Below, one piece after another: positions 9,306-27,811 of a stretch of 39,074 nt of DNA. The DNA is from a virus. How positions within the stretch are numbered: position 1 is the stretch's first letter; the number at the start of each line of letters is the position of its first letter. The notes under the pieces were generated by a model. That model was not told where the DNA came from. It made no database searches and saw only the letters and a program-made list of their open reading frames with translations. The stretch covers positions 1-39,074 of the IMG/VR virus record IMGVR_UViG_3300033388_001287; one strand, written 5' to 3'. A program made the translations under genes and the position numbers.

Positions 9306-12149
9306 TTATAAGTTCAAATCGTCGCCTGTGTTCTGGATACGAATTGGGATAAAGATGAACTCTACAGACTTGATTGGCTGGATAGCAATATCAATCCATA
9401 GTTCGTTAGCGTCGATGCGAGCAGGAGTGTTATTGCTCTCGTCCACAACTACTAGGAAGTCATTCAAGCCACGTAGCGTTACTAGCTCTGCTAGGAATGC
9501 GTCAAACGCATCTTTCACAGCGCCGCGTGTTACTGTGTCGTTAGGCTCAAACAAGAATGGCTGTGCCAACTGGTCTGCTTGATAACGAACATAGTTCACG
9601 AGGCGAGCAACATTAATACGATCTAGAGCAGACGAAGTAGCCTGTCTTGTCTTCTGACCAAATGCAACCAGTCCTCTGTTTGGAATGTTTGCAATTGGAT
9701 TAACGTTGTTCTGCTGTAGAACATCACGTTGTCCTTGTGTTAGTGATACTGGAACAAACTCATCGTTTGAATCCAAGTAGCCAACTGCTGATGCATTAGT
9801 TACTGTGCCGCGTGTGAAGCCTGCTGGTGCGTACCAAGGGTAAGCAACGTTGTCATTCTGCGCCATCACACGAAGCATCATGTGACTTGATGGAACAACT
9901 ACTTCACTACCATCTGTATTAGTAGATAGACCAGATGGGTAGTAAACACCCAAGTAGCTATCTGCTGTTACTAGACCATCTTCGCCGTTGCCTGCTGCGT
10001 TAGCAGAGTTAGAAGCCCATGCTTGCAAAGCAGTTGTACTGTTTGACAAGTTGAATGGGGAATCACCAAGAACAAAAGCTTGCTCTTTACGGTCAACGTT
10101 TAGTGCAACCATTTCATCAATAAGTTCTTCGTAGCCAGGAACAGCAATTAGATTGAAGAAAATTGTATCGTCACGAATTTCTTCATTACCAACTAGTACC
10201 GCAGCAAGTGCTTGTGTAACTACTGCTTTCTGCGCACGTTGTCCTGTAATCAAGCTACCATCTTGGTTGTTGCCACTTGAGCTAACCCAACGATCAACCA
10301 GTACGGTTGGCGCTGACGTTAGTGCTGTTGCATTTTCTGTCCAAATCTTAACATTGCGTCCACTGTAGCGTGTATTAAATAGCAATGTGCCACCTGGATA
10401 TAAACGCGGATCTGGAGCGTCAAGGTCAAGATCCGCGTTACTCTGTGCGGAATTCACTCGCGCATCAGCAAATACAATACCTGCTGATGTTGTTTGGTCA
10501 GTATTATCTACTAGTACCCATGCATCTACAGCAACATTATTACGATAGATAACTGGATAATCGTTAACTTGGTCGGTTTCAACCCAAACACTGTCTATGG
10601 TCACAGTCGGCTCGTCGGACTGGACATAAATTGTGCCAGCAACTTCATTCCATACAGCATTGCCACCGTTAACTAGAATGTCAACAATGAAGCTTGGATC
10701 ATACCAATATGTGCCTGCTACTGTAGTACCAGTTGGTGCTGTGCTTTGTACGTTATATGTATCTACTAAATTATCAGTTATAGCTTCTGCTATAGTTCTG
10801 AAGTTAGATGTCGTGCCGTTAATAATATACAGTTCACCTATAACAGATGTACTAGCGGCTGTAATAACAATGTCACGACCATCTGTTGCAGTTAATATTA
10901 CTTGATCTGTTGCACTTTTAGTAGCAACTACTGAATTGCTTGTTAATGCTGGATCAAGGTTGAGTGCGATAATAACTTCGTCAATGCCCGTCATAACTGC
11001 TGTTACTGCTGTGCCAAATGTAGTTGTTGCTGTGCCATTAAGTGTAAACACAGTTGTCGTATCATCAGTGATTACGCCTGCAACTGCTGTTGAACCTGTG
11101 AATACTGTTGTTGCTGCGCCGTTGTGCATTTGTAATGAAATATCTGCCTCAGAAAGTATCTGTGGACTTAGTGGCCTATTCGTTGAAGGGCCACCTGGAA
11201 CAGTCGTATCGTATGAATCTTGACTATCAATAAATCCAACTATTGTACCAGCAGCAATATTATTTGAAGAAACCCCTGTTAGTGCATAGTAACCTGCATG
11301 AGTATCTTCAATAGATGATACAGTGTCAGTAACAGATTGTCCTAAACTAGAGTCATAATGACTTATTGAGAGGTCTAGACCACCGTTTGGCGTAGATGTC
11401 TTCAACCACAAGTCACCTGTGGCTAGTGCAGTTGAATCGTCAGACTGTTTATCAGGTTCGCCTGCATGAGGAGCCCACTGAAAGTCAGTTCCACCACCTG
11501 CTGCTCGATGTGCTGGGTTACCTATTATCAACCAGGCGCCAGCCACACGTTCGAAATAAACAATTGTGCCGTCGCTTCTGTAGTTGACAACTCGGTTGCC
11601 GTTTTGATATCCGCTTGATGGTTCAGCATTACCATTGGTAATGGTTTCGGTGTCAACCACTATTAGATTAGTTAGCGCCTCCCATGCGCCTGCGCTGCTC
11701 CATGAAAATAGACCATTAATGGTACTAGTAGCTGTTGTATCTAACCAGTATGTATTGTCTGGTGCTGCTCCTGCTGGTGCTACGGACGTTGGATCAAGTT
11801 CGTCTAGATCAACGTCTGCGCGAACAACATATGCACGATTAGCTGCGCCAAGAAAAGAATATGAAGCCAAAAGACCATATTCGTTTAGTGGGAAGCCATT
11901 TTGTGCTGTTCCACCAACTTCGTTGAAGTTTGGATCACCAAATGTCTGTAGTAGTTCACGCTGACTAGCGATTAGAAATAAGCTGTCTGCGTTCGCGGCA
12001 GTTGTTCCTGCTGCGATACCTGTTCCATCAGGTGTAAGTTTGTCTTGCTTTGTAGCAATAAGGATTAGGGGTACAGTACCTGGTCCCGCAGAACTGAAAA
12101 AGCTCTCATCGGTTACAGTGACTTGAACGCCAGGTGATACTAGGGCCAT
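9306..12149 (-). CDS. 18: Tail sheath protein (gp18-like), extra-large
   Basis: Forms the contractile sheath around the tail tube. The frame is open to 12326, but ATG 12149 (MALVSPGVQVTVTDE) has AGGAGAACATAAC before it and opens like gp18, giving 947 residues against 659 in T4. The N-terminus and the C-terminal 250 residues are conserved in type: NRGLVAFGQKT, LVNYVRYQADQLAQPFLFEPND and the end VEFIFIPIRIQ. The excess is in the middle (about 120-600), which is rich in Thr, Val, Ala and Asp and looks like added surface domains. No minus-strand TAAATA box lies just upstream, so it may be read through from the dNMP kinase promoter. Confidence 0.95.
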   Translation of the reverse strand: MALVSPGVQVTVTDESFFSSAGPGTVPLILIATKQDKLTPDGTGIAAGTTAANADSLFLIASQRELLQTFGDPNFNEVGGTAQNGFPLNEYGLLASYSFLGAANRAYVVRADVDLDELDPTSVAPAGAAPDNTYWLDTTATSTINGLFSWSSAGAWEALTNLIVVDTETITNGNAEPSSGYQNGNRVVNYRSDGTIVYFERVAGAWLIIGNPAHRAAGGGTDFQWAPHAGEPDKQSDDSTALATGDLWLKTSTPNGGLDLSISHYDSSLGQSVTDTVSSIEDTHAGYYALTGVSSNNIAAGTIVGFIDSQDSYDTTVPGGPSTNRPLSPQILSEADISLQMHNGAATTVFTGSTAVAGVITDDTTTVFTLNGTATTTFGTAVTAVMTGIDEVIIALNLDPALTSNSVVATKSATDQVILTATDGRDIVITAASTSVIGELYIINGTTSNFRTIAEAITDNLVDTYNVQSTAPTGTTVAGTYWYDPSFIVDILVNGGNAVWNEVAGTIYVQSDEPTVTIDSVWVETDQVNDYPVIYRNNVAVDAWVLVDNTDQTTSAGIVFADARVNSAQSNADLDLDAPDPRLYPGGTLLFNTRYSGRNVKIWTENATALTSAPTVLVDRWVSSSGNNQDGSLITGQRAQKAVVTQALAAVLVGNEEIRDDTIFFNLIAVPGYEELIDEMVALNVDRKEQAFVLGDSPFNLSNSTTALQAWASNSANAAGNGEDGLVTADSYLGVYYPSGLSTNTDGSEVVVPSSHMMLRVMAQNDNVAYPWYAPAGFTRGTVTNASAVGYLDSNDEFVPVSLTQGQRDVLQQNNVNPIANIPNRGLVAFGQKTRQATSSALDRINVARLVNYVRYQADQLAQPFLFEPNDTVTRGAVKDAFDAFLAELVTLRGLNDFLVVVDESNNTPARIDANELWIDIAIQPIKSVEFIFIPIRIQNTGDDLNL

Positions 12150-20750: not shown

Positions 20751-20782
20751 TTATTGTTTCCGTTTTCTCAGTGTATAATATA

Positions 20783-20811
20783 ATTATACGGGAAAAACAG
20801 GGAAATGTCAA
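20783..20811 (-). promoter_or_regulatory. Sigma70 promoter for the 18368-20750 early operon
   Basis: -35 TTGACA at 20806-20811, a 17-base spacer, -10 TATAAT at 20783-20788. Perfect hexamers. Confidence 0.94.
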
Positions 20812-20988
20812 GCTTTTGAGCAACCTAAATTCCTAAGGAATTCATGGGTTTACAAGTTTTTTCACCCTTTATTGGAACGGGGCTTGGTCATGGTATTATA
20901 TGCGTATATAACAGAATTTCCTGTATTTGGGGTCGAAAAACCCTAAGGAAATCAAGGGGTTGCGAGGGGGCAAAATAAAATACGCCCT
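20812..20988. other. Non-coding interval with palindrome and repeated CCTTAGG
   Basis: No gene of credible length. It holds a palindrome AATTCCTAAGGAATT at 20828-20842, and the 9-mer CCTAAGGAA occurs twice, at 20832-20840 and 20942-20950. A TATAAT-like element lies near 20892 without a good -35. No intrinsic terminator with a T run is seen after the radical SAM gene. Confidence 0.6.
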
Positions 20989-21933
20989 TTAGCTATTGAC
21001 CGTGGCCCGTTGCTTTCGCCAGAAGCCCTCGAGTCCCATGCCATGCGCATTGATTGGAATTCCCTTCAGTTTCGGGAAATTCTCAGATTCACGCATGTAG
21101 CCCTCGATCACGAAATACTCGTCGCTGATCGTTCCGTCTGTGAAGTAGTTTACGCTGTCAATGTCAGTTTTGACTGTCTGCCAGAAGCATACGTCTTTTC
21201 CAGCTATACTATAAATTGGTGCAGCGTAGAATTCTCCCACTTGTGTATGCTCTTTGACAACATCGACTAACAGGCGATCAAAACATAGTGCATCTTCGAT
21301 CAAAAAGTCTTCGCGGCTGTCTGTGCAAATTCTACGTATTTGAACATACTGCACAGAGGGGAAATTACCCAACCATTCGAGCATTTCGGGTATCTCTGCT
21401 ACGTTGTATTTGCTTGCAACGATAGACACACGACAATGATCCACTTCAGTTAAGATTTTCTCCCAATCTGGCATTGGTGACTTGCCCATCATCAATTGTT
21501 GGGTATCAAAGTCTCGCGTATGGATTGAGAACCCAGGATTGGCAATGCACTTGGCTATCGCATCCATTTTCTTAGGTGCGAGGAATCCATTGGTACGTAA
21601 TCCCATTTTAAAACCTTGCCCTTGAACGTAATCTAGAATCTCACCCAAATACCGATACATTAATGCATCTGTGTTTTGTCCAGTGAGATAGATATTTGGA
21701 ATGTTGCGCTGTTTGCAAGTGTCGAGAAATTCATCAAACTTTTTCCACGTACTAAAGTGGTCGCGCATTTGATTTTGGTTTGAAAAGATTGGATCAATGT
21801 CTTTGCCAAGACAAAAGTAACAATCCGCGTTGCACTTTCCGAGAACGTTAATGTTCGCAAAACTTGGTGCAGAACGATCCCAATTCTTTTCAAATTCGGG
21901 GCGAAGCAGTTCATTACGCCATTGCTTAGTCAC
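20989..21933 (-). CDS. Radical SAM enzyme of unknown substrate
   Basis: 314 residues starting at GTG 21933 with GGAG upstream. The cluster motif is CNADCYFC (Cys34, 38, 41), which binds the [4Fe-4S] that cleaves S-adenosylmethionine. Later segments YLTGQNTDALM (in the GGE position), GLRTNGF and FSIHTRD fit the partial TIM barrel of MoaA-type enzymes. No SPASM Cys set and no viperin signature are evident. It ends the NAD-salvage operon, overlapping the upstream gene by 8 bases. A role in modifying a peptide, nucleotide or RNA is possible; the substrate is unknown. Confidence 0.88.
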   Translation of the reverse strand: MTKQWRNELLRPEFEKNWDRSAPSFANINVLGKCNADCYFCLGKDIDPIFSNQNQMRDHFSTWKKFDEFLDTCKQRNIPNIYLTGQNTDALMYRYLGEILDYVQGQGFKMGLRTNGFLAPKKMDAIAKCIANPGFSIHTRDFDTQQLMMGKSPMPDWEKILTEVDHCRVSIVASKYNVAEIPEMLEWLGNFPSVQYVQIRRICTDSREDFLIEDALCFDRLLVDVVKEHTQVGEFYAAPIYSIAGKDVCFWQTVKTDIDSVNYFTDGTISDEYFVIEGYMRESENFPKLKGIPINAHGMGLEGFWRKQRATVNS

Positions 21934-22186
21934 TTCTACTCTCCATTCCTTCTAGCTTAATTTTCTCTTGTTCAAGTTTGAATTCAAGGTGGGCAACAAC
22001 ACTATGCTGATAAGACAATGCAGCTTCTCGACTAAGTTTGGCCTCATGTTCTTTTACTGCTGACATATGCTCCGCGCAATAAAAGCGTGGGTCATACATT
22101 GGGCCTCTTGTGCAATCAATAAAACTGGTGTCTTCTTCATTACAGTTCGTTGCGTTACAAATCATTTGCTCTTTTGTGAATTGCAT
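21926..22186 (-). CDS. Small Cys/His-rich protein, probable zinc binder
   Basis: 86 residues. CNATNC, then CTRG, then FYCAEH within the first 42 residues form a plausible zinc site; the rest is a charged helix ending LEFKLEQEKIKLEGME. The ATG overlaps the upstream stop as TAATG. Between nadV and the radical SAM gene, in the same operon. Function unknown. Confidence 0.82.
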   Translation of the reverse strand: MQFTKEQMICNATNCNEEDTSFIDCTRGPMYDPRFYCAEHMSAVKEHEAKLSREAALSYQHSVVAHLEFKLEQEKIKLEGMESRSD

Positions 22187-22413
22187 TATTCTACCATCCT
22201 TACGTGAATCGTGTACATTACGTAACTAAGATCACCACTAGTCCAGTTTCCCCTGCCAGTTGCAGTCCATTTGATGTCTTTCTCATAATCTGCCTCTGCG
22301 TATGCGCGGGCATCGTTTGGATCGAGAAACATTTTACGTTCGGTCACGGTAGGACTTGTTCCCATTGCACCCAACGTAGTCATGTCTTCGATGATTAATT
22401 CATAAAGTTTCAT
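22186..22413 (-). CDS. Small hypothetical protein with MKLYEL N-terminus
   Basis: 75 residues from ATG 22413, with TTGGAG 8 bases upstream; the frame is open to 22458 through a hairpin and is not used. N-terminus MKLYELIIED resembles those at 14228-14488 and 13147-13602. Middle PNDARAYAEADYEKDIKW. No domain recognised. Confidence 0.82.
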   Translation of the reverse strand: MKLYELIIEDMTTLGAMGTSPTVTERKMFLDPNDARAYAEADYEKDIKWTATGRGNWTSGDLSYVMYTIHVRMVE

Positions 22414-22431
22414 TTTTTTCTCCAAGTTGAC

Positions 22432-22456
22432 GGGTGACGCACAATGCGCGCCACCC
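22432..22456 (-). other. Intercistronic hairpin after nadV
   Basis: Arms GGGTGGCGC and GCGTCACCC pair over 9 bases with one G-T, and a 7-base loop. No T run follows, so it is not a typical terminator; it may protect the nadV message end or set relative expression. Confidence 0.55.
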
Positions 22457-22462
22457 ATCTGT

Positions 22463-23971
22463 TTAGACAGTCTCGACTGCTTCTACTACTTCGATATTAA
22501 TACGCTCTGCTGGAAGTTTCGCATTTTCACGAACTTCTGCAAATGTCATATCACGAATTAGCTTACCACTGTCGTAGACTGTCTCAAGCATTGGTGTGTA
22601 GCCAGCAGACATCATTGCTGCAACTTCTTCTACACGTACAGTCTTGTGGTCTTTGCCGTTGTACATCAGTTCCAAACGACCAGCCATAGACTTCTTGAAG
22701 CTTGAGCTAATTGGCTCCCAAGTAGTTGCATCGTAAATGGTAGGATCTTTGTAAATGTCGATCCAAACACCATCTGTGTATCGTGCGCAAGCTTTCATTG
22801 CAAACTTCAGTGTGTCTCTGTTGTTCTTCTGTAACAGACCTCCACCCATTCCGAATGCGATGTTGCTGATGCTCCAATTATCCTCAAGAAGCAAGTCAAT
22901 AATCTGCCTAACATCTTCGATGTCGATGCCGTCGCCCTGGATTACGCGAACTCCGTCAAGAACCTTGTAGCCCTTGCTATTGTACGTGAACCCAAAGACT
23001 CTAGACAATCGCTTAACAAATGCTACTGGTGTCAGCACTGGATCGCCACTGTCGGGGCGAATCACCCATGTTGCGCCAGAAGCACGTAGTCGATCTTTGA
23101 ACATCGGTGCAATTACATCAATGAAATGTTTCGGATCGTAGCTGTCTGCTACAGTAGCGAAAATCGCGCCTGGCTTTGCAAATTTATCGAACATCTGTGC
23201 GATAAACTCTGGTTCGCCGTCGCGCCCGAACGCTGTTGTTGTGCTATGCTCTGTAGCAGGAATGCTAAAACCAGCCATTTTCTCATGGTAGCCAATGTTT
23301 GCTGCCATGATACCTACAGTCGTGTCACTTCCTAAGAAGTTAACAAGATGTGCTGCGCCATTGAATGCTGCGCTTTCCATGCTTGATACACCGCGAGAAC
23401 CGAAGTCGTGTAGCTTGAATCCGATTTCTGCATCTGCATCGTCAGCCGATTTCAACAAACCATCATAGATAATCTTTTTGATGTGGTACGATGTGGTAGC
23501 GACTGTAGTAGGTGCCCATACTCGCATAATCAGCGTTTCCATGTACGTTGTTAGCGCAATGATTCGCTCATCTGCTACTGCTGACTCAACTGTTGCAAGC
23601 AACTGTTTCGTAGGAATCACCATGCCCTCTGGAATTGCGCGAATCTTCAATGGCATGTAGCCATCGTAATCGTCAACTACTGCGCGAAGCGCAACTTCCA
23701 GTTCGTCAATCTCAGTGCCGAACAAATGTTCGCGCTGAAAGGCAATAATGTTATCAACTTGCTTGTGCGTCAACTGTCGAAGCAAATGCTCCTTGATAAC
23801 CAACTGTAAACCGAACCATTGTACTTCATTAAACTGTTCGCTGCCCCTGCTAAAGATGTGACTCATTAACCGTTCAGTTCCCTTTGGGTACTGTGCAGGA
23901 TGTGAAAATTTGTAGCTGTCTGTGTCGCCAGCCACGCCATATGTATCTCTAATTTCTTGTATAATGCTCAT
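22463..23971 (-). CDS. nadV: Nicotinamide phosphoribosyltransferase (NadV/NAMPT)
   Basis: Makes NMN from nicotinamide and PRPP, the first step of two-step NAD+ salvage. 502 residues, the usual NAMPT length. Family signatures: DTDSYKFSHPAQYP near the N-terminus, LHDFGSRGVSS, IPATEHST (His matching the catalytic His of human NAMPT), WVIRPDSGDPV, and FGMGGGLLQKNNRDT. AAGGAG lies 7 bases before the ATG. In an operon with NadM-Nudix upstream, so the phage can rebuild NAD+ from the nicotinamide released when NAD+ is cleaved. T4-like phage KVP40 is a known carrier of NadV. Confidence 0.97.
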   Translation of the reverse strand: MSIIQEIRDTYGVAGDTDSYKFSHPAQYPKGTERLMSHIFSRGSEQFNEVQWFGLQLVIKEHLLRQLTHKQVDNIIAFQREHLFGTEIDELEVALRAVVDDYDGYMPLKIRAIPEGMVIPTKQLLATVESAVADERIIALTTYMETLIMRVWAPTTVATTSYHIKKIIYDGLLKSADDADAEIGFKLHDFGSRGVSSMESAAFNGAAHLVNFLGSDTTVGIMAANIGYHEKMAGFSIPATEHSTTTAFGRDGEPEFIAQMFDKFAKPGAIFATVADSYDPKHFIDVIAPMFKDRLRASGATWVIRPDSGDPVLTPVAFVKRLSRVFGFTYNSKGYKVLDGVRVIQGDGIDIEDVRQIIDLLLEDNWSISNIAFGMGGGLLQKNNRDTLKFAMKACARYTDGVWIDIYKDPTIYDATTWEPISSSFKKSMAGRLELMYNGKDHKTVRVEEVAAMMSAGYTPMLETVYDSGKLIRDMTFAEVRENAKLPAERINIEVVEAVETV

Positions 23972-24010
23972 TGTAATCTCCTTACAATTATGCCCGCTCC
24001 AATGCAGGAC

Positions 24011-24208
24011 TTAGTGTTTCACGAATGGGCCGCCTTCAGCCAATCCATATTCGTTGAATGTTACATCGTCAAATGCGCCTTCCGTGTGTCCTATCTGTGC
24101 TGCTCTGCGCAACACTTCCAAATACGGCTCAGCGTGTTTGACTCCATGTAGTGAGCGATGTATGCGCTCCTCATATGCTACTTTTGCGATAAATTCTAAG
24201 TTACTCAT
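24011..24208 (-). CDS. Small hypothetical protein in NAD operon
   Basis: 65 residues from ATG 24208, with AAGGAG 6 bases upstream; the ATG two codons earlier would touch the ribosome site. Sequence MSNLEFIAKVAYEER then HAEPYLEVLRRAAQIGH, helical. No domain recognised. Between nadM and nadV. Confidence 0.8.
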   Translation of the reverse strand: MSNLEFIAKVAYEERIHRSLHGVKHAEPYLEVLRRAAQIGHTEGAFDDVTFNEYGLAEGGPFVKH

Positions 24209-24219
24209 TTTCATCTCCT

Positions 24220-24483
24220 TTATGCTGCTTTGAAGAACTGCGGGTATCGCAATCTTCGTGTGAATATTTCTTTTGTTGCTGCTACTTTCGTGCTAAAAAT
24301 GTTTTCGTCATTGAAGGTTCGAACAGTTGTCGCGCTGTGACCATCGCTGTAGAATTTGACATAAACACGATGTCCTGAACCCCAACGTGTGTAGAATCCT
24401 TGTGCTGTAGATTCATCACCGAGTATACCTTCTGCAATCTTTTGCGTTCTTGTAAGTACAAATACTGTGTCGCCTTTATTCAT
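24220..24483 (-). CDS. Small hypothetical beta-rich protein in NAD operon
   Basis: 87 residues from ATG 24483 (MNKGDTVFVLTRTQK), one base after the nadM stop, with GAGGA inside the end of nadM. The strand pattern GDTVFVL...HRVYVKFYSDGHSATTVRTF suggests a small barrel such as a KOW/SH3-like fold. Function unknown. Confidence 0.82.
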   Translation of the reverse strand: MNKGDTVFVLTRTQKIAEGILGDESTAQGFYTRWGSGHRVYVKFYSDGHSATTVRTFNDENIFSTKVAATKEIFTRRLRYPQFFKAA

Positions 24484-24484
24484 C

Positions 24485-25546
24485 TTAGTCCTCGATCTTC
24501 GCAACCATCGTTTGGATGATTAGCTTGTGATCTTCAAAAAGAATGCTTCCCATTGCGTCAACTACGTTTAGTGGGAACCAATCAGCAAATTCTGCATCGT
24601 CCGAGCCCTTCACTTTGGGAAGTTTAGGCTGTGGTTTAAGATCAATAAGAAATGCGTTTGTAATTGTGCGTCCTCGCAAGCTTCTGTTGGGCGCGTCAAA
24701 TACTGTCGTGTGCTTGTGCTTGATGCTGCCCTCTAAGACTGCTACGGGAACTTTCACTCTAGTTTCTTCGCGCAGTTCGCGAATGACACATTCATCAAGA
24801 CGTTCGTTTTGATTGACAAATCCACCAGGCAATGCCCAAAGACCTTTGCCTGGAGCAAAACGTCTTTTGACTAAAAGTACATGACCACTTTGAACAACAA
24901 CAGCATCAGTCGTTACAAAAGTTGGTGGGTAAGGTGCTGCTGCCCATTCTTCTTTGTAGCGATGAATATATTCTTGTTCTTCTACGAGTAAATCGTATTC
25001 AGGGGTCTTTGAAAACTTGTCAAGAAATGCAAGTACTTCTGGCGGAACATCAGGAATGATTTCTTCAAACTCGCCATCGAAATAGTGGTCGCGAATAACT
25101 GATGCGTCAAGTATCCTGCTGCCTTTAGAGCGAATGCGATGTCCGATCTCAATGAACTTCCAAGTAGGAAACTGCTCAAGATAAAAACTTGTGTGATCTT
25201 TGTCGTGACCGAGAATAGCGACTTTAGCTGATTGCGTGTCAATGCTATTTTCGATTAGATGTTTGTGAACTACAGTCTGAACAGATTGTAGCCATAGTGC
25301 GTCAGGGTAATAATCTTCAACGCCAACAGCTTGTACGCGGTCGTCAGGGAAGACATTTTTAATCATTTCAATACGTTCATCTAGGGTGAACGGATTTCTC
25401 GGAGTGCGGGGTTGATTTGCTGAACCGACAATGACCAGAACATGGTCAGCGATTTCTAATGCTTTTTCAATATTTGGAATGTGGCCGTTATGTAGCGGCT
25501 CAAGTCTGCCAACGAATGTGGCGAGATTATATTCTTTTGTACTCAC
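24485..25546 (-). CDS. nadM: Bifunctional NMN adenylyltransferase / Nudix hydrolase (NadM-Nudix)
   Basis: Joins NMN and ATP to give NAD+, the second salvage step; the Nudix half of related enzymes hydrolyses ADP-ribose. 353 residues from GTG 25546 with GGAGG upstream. Nucleotidyltransferase domain (about 1-180): GRLEPLHNGHIPN with the HxGH motif, and a C-terminal DASVIRDH. Nudix domain (about 200-345): the box GGFVNQNERLDECVIRELREET matches GX5EX7REUXEEXGU. The same fusion is known in Francisella and Synechocystis. First gene of the operon, behind a sigma70 promoter and a three-hairpin leader that places the ribosome site in a loop, suggesting control of translation. Confidence 0.96.
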   Translation of the reverse strand: MSTKEYNLATFVGRLEPLHNGHIPNIEKALEIADHVLVIVGSANQPRTPRNPFTLDERIEMIKNVFPDDRVQAVGVEDYYPDALWLQSVQTVVHKHLIENSIDTQSAKVAILGHDKDHTSFYLEQFPTWKFIEIGHRIRSKGSRILDASVIRDHYFDGEFEEIIPDVPPEVLAFLDKFSKTPEYDLLVEEQEYIHRYKEEWAAAPYPPTFVTTDAVVVQSGHVLLVKRRFAPGKGLWALPGGFVNQNERLDECVIRELREETRVKVPVAVLEGSIKHKHTTVFDAPNRSLRGRTITNAFLIDLKPQPKLPKVKGSDDAEFADWFPLNVVDAMGSILFEDHKLIIQTMVAKIED

Positions 25547-25548
25547 TT

Positions 25549-25565
25549 CGATACCCTCCGTATCG
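25549..25565 (-). promoter_or_regulatory. Hairpin presenting the nadM ribosome binding site in its loop
   Basis: The minus strand reads CGATAC-GGAGG-GTATCG: a 6-base stem with the full Shine-Dalgarno as the 5-base loop, ending 2 bases before the GTG. Confidence 0.8.
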
Positions 25566-25570
25566 TCTTT

Positions 25571-25589
25571 GTCTAAGATTTTCTTAGAC
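25571..25589 (-). promoter_or_regulatory. nadM leader hairpin 2
   Basis: A perfect 8-base stem GTCTAAGA/TCTTAGAC with a 3-base AAA loop, 5 bases upstream of the ribosome-site hairpin. Confidence 0.78.
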
Positions 25590-25591
25590 TA

Positions 25592-25610
25592 CAAAGAGTC
25601 CACCTCTTTG
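25592..25610 (-). promoter_or_regulatory. nadM leader hairpin 1
   Basis: A perfect 7-base stem CAAAGAG/CTCTTTG with a GTGGA loop, 2 bases upstream of hairpin 2. Confidence 0.78.
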
Positions 25611-25622
25611 TTTGTTCACTAC

Positions 25623-25628
25623 TATTTA
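25623..25628 (-). promoter_or_regulatory. Late promoter candidate in the nadM leader
   Basis: AGCTAAATAGTAG just after the sigma70 -10. It would let the operon be expressed late as well. Confidence 0.5.
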
Positions 25629-25640
25629 GCTTATAGTATA

Positions 25641-25669
25641 ACTATACGCTAATTTGCGGGGTTTGTCAA
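25641..25669 (-). promoter_or_regulatory. Sigma70 promoter for the NAD salvage operon
   Basis: -35 TTGACA at 25664-25669, a 17-base spacer, -10 TATAGT at 25641-25646. The leader to the nadM start would be about 85-90 bases. Confidence 0.9.
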
Positions 25670-25752
25670 GCTATTTCGTCACTTTATTTCCTGTTTTTTG
25701 TAAAATCAATCACTTACATTGCAGCCCGCCCTGCAGTCAAATACGAACTTCG

Positions 25753-26658
25753 TTAAGTTTTTCTCTGCGTTGATTCGATTGCTTGACGCATAGTTTCATT
25801 ATCGGCTTTGCCATTAAGTTTCAGCAATACCCAATCATCCCAACCACTAGACTGATATTCTACTTCTGAATAATCTGTAAACCTTTGTCCGTTTGCTGTT
25901 ACCATCTTATGATTGTAGTTTGAAACAACATAATATACTTCTGAATCTTCATCTGCTTTAGGATAGCCAGCATCTTCAACGTGCATCCATACTCCATCCT
26001 TGCACATAGTATGTGTACCTGTAACAATCACACCATCGACATCATACCAAGTTTCTAACGAAGCATCGCCAATTTGTTGCTGATAAACTCGGCCGCCTTC
26101 TTCCATTATATCACCAGGTACAATATCTTGAACTTCCTTGAGCAATCCGTCTGCCATGCGCATTAGCGTTCCATACACGAAGCATCCGCCGCCTGGTCCG
26201 CCACCGCCACCGCCTGGCGTTGCGCGGATTACTTGTATAGTCCAAGTTGCTGTGTCTATCACAGCGCCAGATCCTTGTCGTATTGAAACTGTGAAGGTCG
26301 CGGTTGCATTCTGCACAGTTTCGGGGGTAAGTGCAAAGCCCCAAGAAGTACTCACGGGTGACCAAACCCCTGCAAGAGGGCCATATGCGGCTCCGAGACC
26401 ACCGTCCAAGTCGAAAGGTGCAGAAACTCCGCGCATTAGTTCATATGGTGGACTGCCTGGTGCTTCAAACTTTGGGCTGATCCAATCGTGATGAACGTCT
26501 GTGCCGCCGCTTGTGCTGCATGTGACATCACCAAATGATCTACCATTGATGGTGGCACTTGGATTGGATTCGTGGGTGTCGGTGCAGAGTACGTCGAGTA
26601 TCTCTACAAAAATTGGGATAGACGCAGCATTTACTGTGTCAATATGCATTAGACTCAT
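25753..26658 (-). CDS. Protein with Ig-like region and C-terminal Hint (intein-like) domain
   Basis: 301 residues. Residues 1-145 are strand-rich and end in TATFTVSIRQ...TWTIQVI, like a bacterial Ig-type domain. A Gly linker (about 149-158) leads to Cys159 of a Hint domain: CFVYGTLMRMADGLLKEVQDIVPGD, then TGTHTM with the block-B His216, then a WMHVEDA turn. Hint domains rearrange a peptide bond at the first Cys. The usual C-terminal His-Asn is not seen, so N-side cleavage or ligation to a small nucleophile is more likely than splicing. The ATG has AGGA upstream and a TAAATA box at 26683-26688; it starts 1 base after the protease gene. Confidence 0.88.
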   Translation of the reverse strand: MSLMHIDTVNAASIPIFVEILDVLCTDTHESNPSATINGRSFGDVTCSTSGGTDVHHDWISPKFEAPGSPPYELMRGVSAPFDLDGGLGAAYGPLAGVWSPVSTSWGFALTPETVQNATATFTVSIRQGSGAVIDTATWTIQVIRATPGGGGGGPGGGCFVYGTLMRMADGLLKEVQDIVPGDIMEEGGRVYQQQIGDASLETWYDVDGVIVTGTHTMCKDGVWMHVEDAGYPKADEDSEVYYVVSNYNHKMVTANGQRFTDYSEVEYQSSGWDDWVLLKLNGKADNETMRQAIESTQRKT

Positions 26659-26659
26659 G

Positions 26660-27811
26660 TTATGTTCCTGTGAATTTTATAATATTTAGCTCGTTAACAA
26701 CATCATCAATATCGTTAGCGAATGTGACTACATCGTTACCCGCAAATAGTAGTGCAACAGCATTATCGTTATCATCGACAATGATCGAACCACTATCGCC
26801 ACCTGCTGAGAATGGGTCTGCAACACCTGATTCAATTGCAGTTTGATTTTCAAAGCGAGCCACGCCAGTACCGTATCCAACGTCTACTGTGACATTTGTT
26901 TGTGTTATTGTTCCAGTTGTGTGACCAGTTGTTCGTCCAAGCTTGTGTACGCTTGTTCCAACACCAGCCAATTCATTAATTCCCTTAACACCGTCGTAGT
27001 AATCTAGATAATTCAATCCATAACTAACATCTGAGTCAATACGCATAAGCGCACCATCGACCCTATTGCGAATCGTCTGTGCTGTCACATCTTGTGACAT
27101 TGGTGGCAATGTAGGATTAGGTGGTCGTGGGCGGACTGGTTTTAGTCTTGTTTCTCGACCAAATAGACTTGCAACTGCATTTAATGCTTTAGCAAAGATG
27201 TTGGCGATAAAACAATCACTATCATCTTCCTCTACTGGTGGCTCTGGATCGGGAGTTGGTGGCTCAGGATCAGGAGTTGGTTCAGGGTCATCATCGGTGC
27301 CAGGATCTGGTGTTGGCACTGTTTGTCCAACAAAAGAAATTGGAACATACGTGTATAGCGTACCAATTCTATCGCCACCACCATCATGTGGCCCTGGTTG
27401 AACGATGCTGTCACCAAGTTCAGCTTTATTTTCATCTGCAAAAACATGGTTGTTGCTTAGGAGCATGACCTCGCCGTCAACATAAACAACACCACCAATG
27501 GTACCTGCTGTAATATCAGTATGTCCAACAGAAATTCCTGGAACTACTGGACGTTGTTTATCTTGATATGCTGGAAATGCTACTGGACGGGAACCAATCT
27601 CAATAATATCTGTTGGAATGCCATCTATATCAGCAGGAATGCGGTCTGCAAGGGACAGTTGAGATTTCTTCTTTTTGATTGAGCAAATGATTGCGCGCTT
27701 TCCCGTACGTTTTCCGCCTGAGATTTTTTCGCCTAGACCGACAGCATATACGCCGTCTCTGCTTAGAAGTTGGTCTACATTTTTACGTAATGTTTCGTGA
27801 TGATTCCTCAA
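26660..27811 (-). CDS. Trypsin-like serine protease with Pro/Asp-rich insert
   Basis: 383 residues from TTG 27811 behind GAGAGG; no ATG is suitable. A chymotrypsin-fold protease: LLSNNHVFA (His122), VDGALMRID (Asp252) and SAGGDSGSIIV (Ser340), with GVSVGHTDITAGTIGG-type strands before the His. Residues 166-235 interrupt the fold with PTPDPEPP repeats and a Cys-containing hydrophobic stretch. No signal peptide is seen. A GATAAATAG late promoter lies at 27839-27844. Late expression beside a Hint protein suggests maturation of a virion protein or a protease carried by the particle; both are inferences. Confidence 0.9.
   Translation of the reverse strand: MRNHHETLRKNVDQLLSRDGVYAVGLGEKISGGKRTGKRAIICSIKKKKSQLSLADRIPADIDGIPTDIIEIGSRPVAFPAYQDKQRPVVPGISVGHTDITAGTIGGVVYVDGEVMLLSNNHVFADENKAELGDSIVQPGPHDGGGDRIGTLYTYVPISFVGQTVPTPDPGTDDDPEPTPDPEPPTPDPEPPVEEDDSDCFIANIFAKALNAVASLFGRETRLKPVRPRPPNPTLPPMSQDVTAQTIRNRVDGALMRIDSDVSYGLNYLDYYDGVKGINELAGVGTSVHKLGRTTGHTTGTITQTNVTVDVGYGTGVARFENQTAIESGVADPFSAGGDSGSIIVDDNDNAVALLFAGNDVVTFANDIDDVVNELNIIKFTGT
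26683..26688 (-). promoter_or_regulatory. Late promoter candidate for the Hint protein
   Basis: The minus strand reads CGAGCTAAATATTAT inside the end of the protease gene, 25 bases before the ATG. Confidence 0.55.
27237..27278. repeat. Imperfect 21-base tandem repeat in the protease insert
   Basis: Two units at 27237-27257 and 27258-27278 differ at two bases and encode the PTPDPEPP-type linker. A third, degenerate part follows. Confidence 0.85.

Follow-up and report, generated by a model that had tools for sequence, protein, structure and literature searches.

Two phage systems, NARP1 and NARP2, have been described as refilling nicotinamide adenine dinucleotide (NAD+) after the action of immune NADases (PMC11984713). 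NARP1, which consists of Adps and Namat, leads from nicotinamide to NAD+, and its Namat is a homologue of nicotinamide phosphoribosyltransferase (Nampt) that uses ADP-ribose-pyrophosphate and carries the selectivity-clamp motif GSx-phi-x-phi-x-phi-TRD (PMC12774641). In NARP2-type salvage, a NadV of the Nampt type and a NadM-Nudix protein are encoded in one phage operon. In a published survey, NadV is found in 22% of the medium-sized phages and in 33% of the jumbo phages, phages with NadM all carry NadV as well, and the genes named in the available portion are NadV, NadM and NadR, with NADAR as a neighbour (PMC9503650). The locus analysed here occupies positions 20989-25669, on the minus strand, of the virus contig IMGVR_UViG_3300033388_001287, the whole 39,074 nucleotides of which are called the window below. 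It likewise encodes a Nampt-type NadV and a NadM-Nudix protein in one operon, with chemistry that is predicted from the enzyme families, and it differs from NARP2-type salvage in the addition of a radical S-adenosylmethionine (SAM) enzyme, hereafter rSAM, and four small unknown genes. The NAD-rebuilding pair is already known, and rSAM is the new part. No publication naming both NadV and a radical SAM enzyme was found in a literature search of partial coverage, which is weak evidence of novelty. On balance, we favour the view that the operon serves NAD+ salvage, with rSAM acting on a nucleotide of the NAD cycle.

The identity of the salvage pair was apparent from several types of matches. NadM-Nudix (24485-25546, minus strand, 353 amino acids, GTG start) matches a bifunctional nicotinamide mononucleotide (NMN) adenylyltransferase/Nudix protein of the ADP-ribose pyrophosphatase type from end to end (phrog_395, 2.8e-74; PDB 2qjo, 1.2e-85), and its match to PRK05379 (7.6e-117) is slightly under the cut-off of that profile. 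NadV (22463-23971, minus strand, 502 amino acids) matches Nampt-type enzymes (phrog_448, 7e-131; Nampt-family PDB entries, 3e-117) and exceeds the cut-off of PRK09198 (478 versus 405 bits). Pfam gathering scores were passed by the NadM and Nudix, the NAMPT/NAPRTase and the Radical_SAM matches. At the position of the Namat clamp, which was not found in the NadV of the window, this protein carries the Nampt segment GMGGGLLQKNNRD (GGGLLQK), and therefore NadV should make NMN. In this respect the locus differs from NARP1, and none of the operon genes was recognised as Adps. NadV and NadM-Nudix are thus predicted to form an ordinary NARP2-type NAD+ salvage pair of the kind that is common in phages, and the profile and PDB matches bear out the first-pass annotation, made from the DNA letters, which had proposed such a pair.

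The rSAM gene (20989-21933, minus strand) encodes a protein of 314 amino acids with a CX3CX2C motif at residues 34-41 and a Pfam Radical_SAM match of 37.1 bits (cut-off 29.5). Its relatives are compact proteins of about 280 amino acids (family identity 40-57%), and in 30 aligned sequences, 39-88% identical to the rSAM of the window, C34, C38 and C41 are invariant and the blocks KNRxR, FANIN, CNxxCxFC, TGQ, RTNG and RxxxTDxR are common to all, with TGQ at the position that is usually GGE. No second conserved set of cysteines was found in this alignment, and therefore a single cluster is expected. The basic residues K16, R20, R113, R168, R200 and R207 are conserved as well and would suit phosphate binding. 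An AlphaFold2 model built from a 35-sequence alignment (mean predicted confidence, pLDDT, of 88.5) matches radical SAM (partial TIM barrel) folds, and in Foldseek its best solved relatives were MoaA, BlsE, SuiB, DesII and viperin, with template-modelling (TM) scores of 0.47-0.61. In profile searches, the nearest families were viperin, MoaA and BlsE, each with a score well under its cut-off. The substrate of MoaA, a GTP 3',8-cyclase, is GTP, that of viperin is CTP, and that of BlsE, a decarboxylase, is cytosylglucuronate. MoaA and BlsE, the best neighbours in the Foldseek and profile comparisons, thus both act on nucleotides or nucleosides, but they are only 16-21% identical to rSAM, at TM 0.45-0.61. 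Family members fall short of the MoaA cut-offs (44 versus 284 bits for the member on contig L023, and 50 versus 284-325 bits for that on L018), and the C-terminal cysteines of the second cluster of MoaA are not conserved in the family. When two family members were compared with 50,697 cultured-phage records, no counterpart was found. To judge from these sequence comparisons, rSAM is a member of an undescribed family that occurs in phages, some Bacilli and Clostridia, and small-genome archaea. On one Clostridia contig, the family member is preceded, at a distance of 4 bases, by a second, MoaA-like radical SAM gene (L012:623-1543).

The rSAM gene is under the strongest purifying selection of the three enzyme genes of the operon. 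Between the window and the related virus contig L005, in which the order nadM, orf67, nadV, orf75, rSAM is the same as in the window, the nonsynonymous divergence (dN) was 0.069 for rSAM, 0.123 for nadV and 0.201 for nadM, which makes rSAM the slowest-evolving enzyme, with synonymous changes near saturation and selection ratios that are rough. The addition of rSAM is probably functional.

We relate rSAM to NAD nucleotides because more than half of the cellular copies found sit in NAD-salvage operons. Twelve cellular contigs carrying rSAM relatives were retrieved with two short peptide patterns, a number that is a lower bound, and NAD genes lie beside rSAM in seven of them (L013, L014, L016 and L018-L021; relatives at 40-47% identity). 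This supports the suggestion, made in the first-pass annotation, that the radical SAM enzyme shares the function of the operon. In L018, the order is an isochorismatase-family (PncA-like) gene, PncB, a NudE-like gene, rSAM, NadE, NadD, PncC and an NrtR-like gene, where the NudE and rSAM frames overlap by 4 bases and NadE starts 2 bases after rSAM. The order NudE-like, rSAM, NadE is common to L014, where NadE is of the NadE(Gln) type and Prs and NadD follow further on, to L016, where PncB precedes it, and to L019. PncB, rSAM and an NrtR-like gene are consecutive in L021, rSAM is followed by an NrtR-like gene in L013, and PncC is near rSAM in L020. The NAD-linked settings are thus NudE-like/nadE in Bacilli, and pncB with an NrtR-like gene in archaea, and in six of the seven cases a Nudix-family gene is a neighbour of rSAM. 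When 25 loci were sampled from the order of one of these genomes (G010), pncB and the NudE-like gene were always neighbours; NudE was followed directly by NadE, without rSAM, in 21, and rSAM stood exactly between them in 2, which carry different NadE types. A rough binomial null with an assumed 5% chance of a NAD gene nearby gave 5e-7 for 7 of 12 loci and 6e-4 for 4 independent cases out of 9. These NrtR/NudE/PncB/NadE operons follow the Preiss-Handler (nicotinate) route, in contrast to the NadV/NadM route of the phage, and only a few of them, in Bacilli and archaea, hold rSAM, most relatives being without it. No riboswitch was detected at the thresholds used, either in the operon region of the window or in the cellular operons. 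In the metagenome-assembled contigs L019 (9989-10818) and L020 (9974-10809), the rSAM reading frame is broken, by assembly error or decay.

Several observations weigh against a role of rSAM in NAD metabolism. Five of the 12 cellular loci have no NAD neighbour, and some of these contigs resemble mobile elements. In genome collections that include the centre genomes, rSAM occurs once among 392 Bacillota genomes and twice each among 337 genomes of the order of G010 and 378 of an archaeal class, and broad genome searches gave almost no cellular copies beyond those already known; therefore, rSAM does not provide an essential NAD step. Among viruses, relatives of the window keep nadM and nadV without rSAM (L007, with a nadV 93% identical to that of the window, and L009/L010, 74%), the nadM of such relatives being 51-70% and the nadV 74-93% identical. 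A NAPRTase-family gene (nadV) is present in 6 of 27 virus records that bear rSAM, many of the other 21 being fragments, and the adjacency of rSAM and nadV is confined to the clade of the window. In a sister jumbo phage (G017), nadM-Nudix and nadV stand together about 110 kb from rSAM. Among rSAM records longer than 100 kb, 4 of 10 carry nadV, which is not clearly over the 22-33% published for nadV in phages of medium and jumbo size (PMC9503650). Since it does not exceed background, viral rSAM-nadV linkage was dropped as general evidence, and the idea of a fixed gene set, which the first-pass annotation had left to comparison with other phages, does not hold for viruses, where most rSAM records are without nadV, a pattern that this annotation had named as refuting, and close nadM/nadV relatives are without rSAM. 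In a tree of the family, the two phage members with NAD linkage are separate from the cellular group with NAD linkage, which suggests either two origins of the linkage or one old origin with frequent loss.

In the scheme that we propose, the operon would rebuild NAD+ in the infected cell. NadV would convert nicotinamide and phosphoribosyl pyrophosphate (PRPP) to NMN, NadM would adenylylate NMN to NAD+, and the Nudix domain would cleave ADP-ribose to AMP and ribose-5-phosphate, which may return through the PRPP synthase of the host; these steps are assigned because the enzyme families are well known. With one [4Fe-4S] cluster at C34, C38 and C41, rSAM would generate a 5'-deoxyadenosyl radical and take a hydrogen from an NAD-cycle nucleotide that carries phosphate, such as ADP-ribose, NMN or nicotinate mononucleotide, NAD, or a form that has been damaged or modified, and the outcome may be repair, recycling or modification of that nucleotide. 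Because of the Nudix neighbours in cells and the Nudix domain in the phage operon, ADP-ribose or a related dinucleotide is a sensible first candidate substrate. The rSAM gene would be an optional module, gained and lost by phages and cells around a stable NAD-salvage core. RyDEP, a phage enzyme described recently, breaks down immune signals based on ADP-ribose and thereby supplies NAD+ synthesis (PMC13232231); by its description (a ryanodine-receptor-like domain) its fold is unrelated to that of rSAM, but it shows that such coupling exists. A more specific proposal, which we put forward as speculative and rather doubtful, is that the family catalyses an undescribed NAD reaction, in which ADP-ribose, NMN, NAD or a NAD-derived immune signal is repaired, opened or modified by radical chemistry, and that phages recruited it next to NadV/NadM so as to regain or protect NAD when immunity depletes it.

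The NAD placement of rSAM in the window might be accidental, with rSAM an independent cargo gene of the phage that acts on RNA, a peptide, a deoxynucleotide or another non-NAD substrate, and with the cellular copies in NAD operons representing a few insertions. The slot after nadV is indeed variable, as it holds this rSAM in the window and L005, an unrelated RlmN-like radical SAM gene in L009 and a phrog_1843 protein in L007; homologues of the RlmN-like gene were not near nadV in the four cultured phages examined, and the majority of viral family members lack NAD neighbours. However, chance would not readily place rSAM in two Bacilli operons of differing make-up at the exact junction of NudE and NadE, and beside PncB/NrtR in archaea, the NAD placements span at least three distant lineages, and the same flanking genes are found in two diverged phages, so that we consider cargo an unlikely explanation. 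It is also possible, although we lean away from it, that the operon is a plain metabolic booster which maintains a high NAD level to support DNA replication (NAD-dependent ligase, redox) without any link to immunity, and that rSAM serves this supply too. The cellular relatives of the operon genes are housekeeping NAD-salvage genes and NadV is common in large phages (PMC9503650), whereas NAD reconstitution by NARP1 and NARP2 has been reported as counter-defence (PMC11984713). This alternative concerns the purpose of the operon and not the chemistry of rSAM, and it overlaps with our favoured reading of rSAM as an NAD-nucleotide enzyme.

A third alternative is that rSAM is a viperin-like nucleotide dehydratase making chain-terminating ddh-nucleotides, for instance to exclude rival phages, and not an NAD enzyme. 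The prokaryotic viperin/SAND family shares the CX3CX2C motif, the single cluster and a distant profile likeness with rSAM; PADLOC reports pVip matches for the window (1e-8) and L018 (4e-16), the NCBIfam viperin profile matches 20 of 35 members, and viperins are the best profile matches among solved structures. Against this, NF038283 gives 26.8 bits for the window and 43.8 bits for L023, far under its cut-off of 180 (best member E-value, 7.8e-17), MoaA profiles match more members (28), the structural overlap with viperin is low (Foldseek TM about 0.48-0.50), and the cellular copies lie in biosynthetic NAD operons, which together make a viperin function very improbable. Members of the family may be miscalled viperin by defence-finding tools. 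The pVip match in L018 covers 9986-10810, and another was recorded at L026:7998-8831 (7e-14).

A radical SAM family that stands at one exact spot in the NAD-salvage operons of Bacilli, beside NAD genes in archaea and next to phage NadV/NadM would add a so far unlisted participant to NAD metabolism. Should the substrate of rSAM be a nucleotide of the NAD cycle, the question arises which product derived from NAD calls for radical chemistry, and whether the firing of immune NADases produces that product.

Some other radical SAM and slot genes were encountered near nadV. The gene directly after nadV in L009/L010 (L009:9503-10363) encodes an RlmN/Cfr-like radical SAM protein (TIGR00048, 2.8e-18) that is shorter than RlmN; it could be a replacement with the same function as rSAM, but this was not relied on, given the cultured-phage homologues located away from nadV. 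The slot after nadV/orf75 in L007 (9795-10457) holds a 220-amino-acid phrog_1843 protein of unknown function that by eye resembles a 2-oxoglutarate/iron oxygenase. In Vibrio phage KVP40 (134159-136044; L063:2925-4810), some 3 kb from nadV, a second and short NAPRTase-like gene (KVP40.0259) directly precedes KVP40.0260, which encodes a radical SAM protein of the twitch type. Here, too, a NAPRTase-like and a radical SAM gene are paired, but the radical SAM family is a different one. The KVP40 radical SAM genes near nadV match the N_Twi_rSAM profile and were rejected as members of the rSAM family.

The seven genes of the window operon form one row on the minus strand, in the order nadM-Nudix, orf87, orf67, nadV, orf75, cys86 and rSAM, with spacings of +1, +5, +39, +49, -1 and -8 bases. 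Upstream is a sigma70-like phage promoter with an extended motif (25637-25671, minus strand; GCTTGACA...GTATAGTTATA; 11 of 12 consensus positions), the core of which is TTGACA-17-TATAGT at 25669-25641. A second copy (20779-20813, minus strand; 12 of 12) starts the next transcription unit and bounds the operon. The extended motif GCTTGACANNNCCC-N10-GTATARTTATA has exactly two copies in the 39 kb and none in 100 shuffles; because these copies flank the seven genes, one upstream of nadM and the other just downstream of rSAM, the genes can be regarded as one bracketed unit. No terminator-like site was found on the minus strand inside the unit. The coordinates and the motif scan thus agree in full with the operon drawn in the first-pass annotation, with its sigma70 promoter, short gaps or overlaps and no internal terminator.

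Profile searches, including Pfam, assigned none of the four small proteins to a family above threshold, and orf67, orf75 and cys86 had no match in cultured phages. orf67 (24011-24214, minus strand; homologues in L007, 81%, and L005, 39%) and orf75 (22186-22413, minus strand; L007, 80%, and L005, 34%) recur solely inside the phage group of the window. orf87 (24220-24483, minus strand) has a homologue only in L007 (57%), and cys86 (21926-22186, minus strand), a cysteine-containing protein whose C-terminus is coiled-coil-like by no more than a weak profile match, is present only in the window and the near-identical sister contig L002; both were rejected as conserved partners, and the special role once suggested for the Cys-rich protein finds no support in this distribution.

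The phage is myovirus-like by its surrounding genes (terminase, tail sheath, rIIA and rIIB), and the contig is probably a fragment, because relatives reach 77 kb. The gene upstream of the operon (25753-26658; L005:3496-4515; L007:4592-5551) by eye encodes a Hedgehog/intein-type (Hint)-like protein after a Gly-rich linker (GGGGGGCFxxGT...), with no Pfam Hint match for the window copy. The 383-amino-acid protein encoded at 26660-27811 contains a GGDSGS motif as well as repeats rich in Pro and Asp; by eye it resembles a trypsin-like serine protease, and it has a homologue in L005 that is 63% identical.

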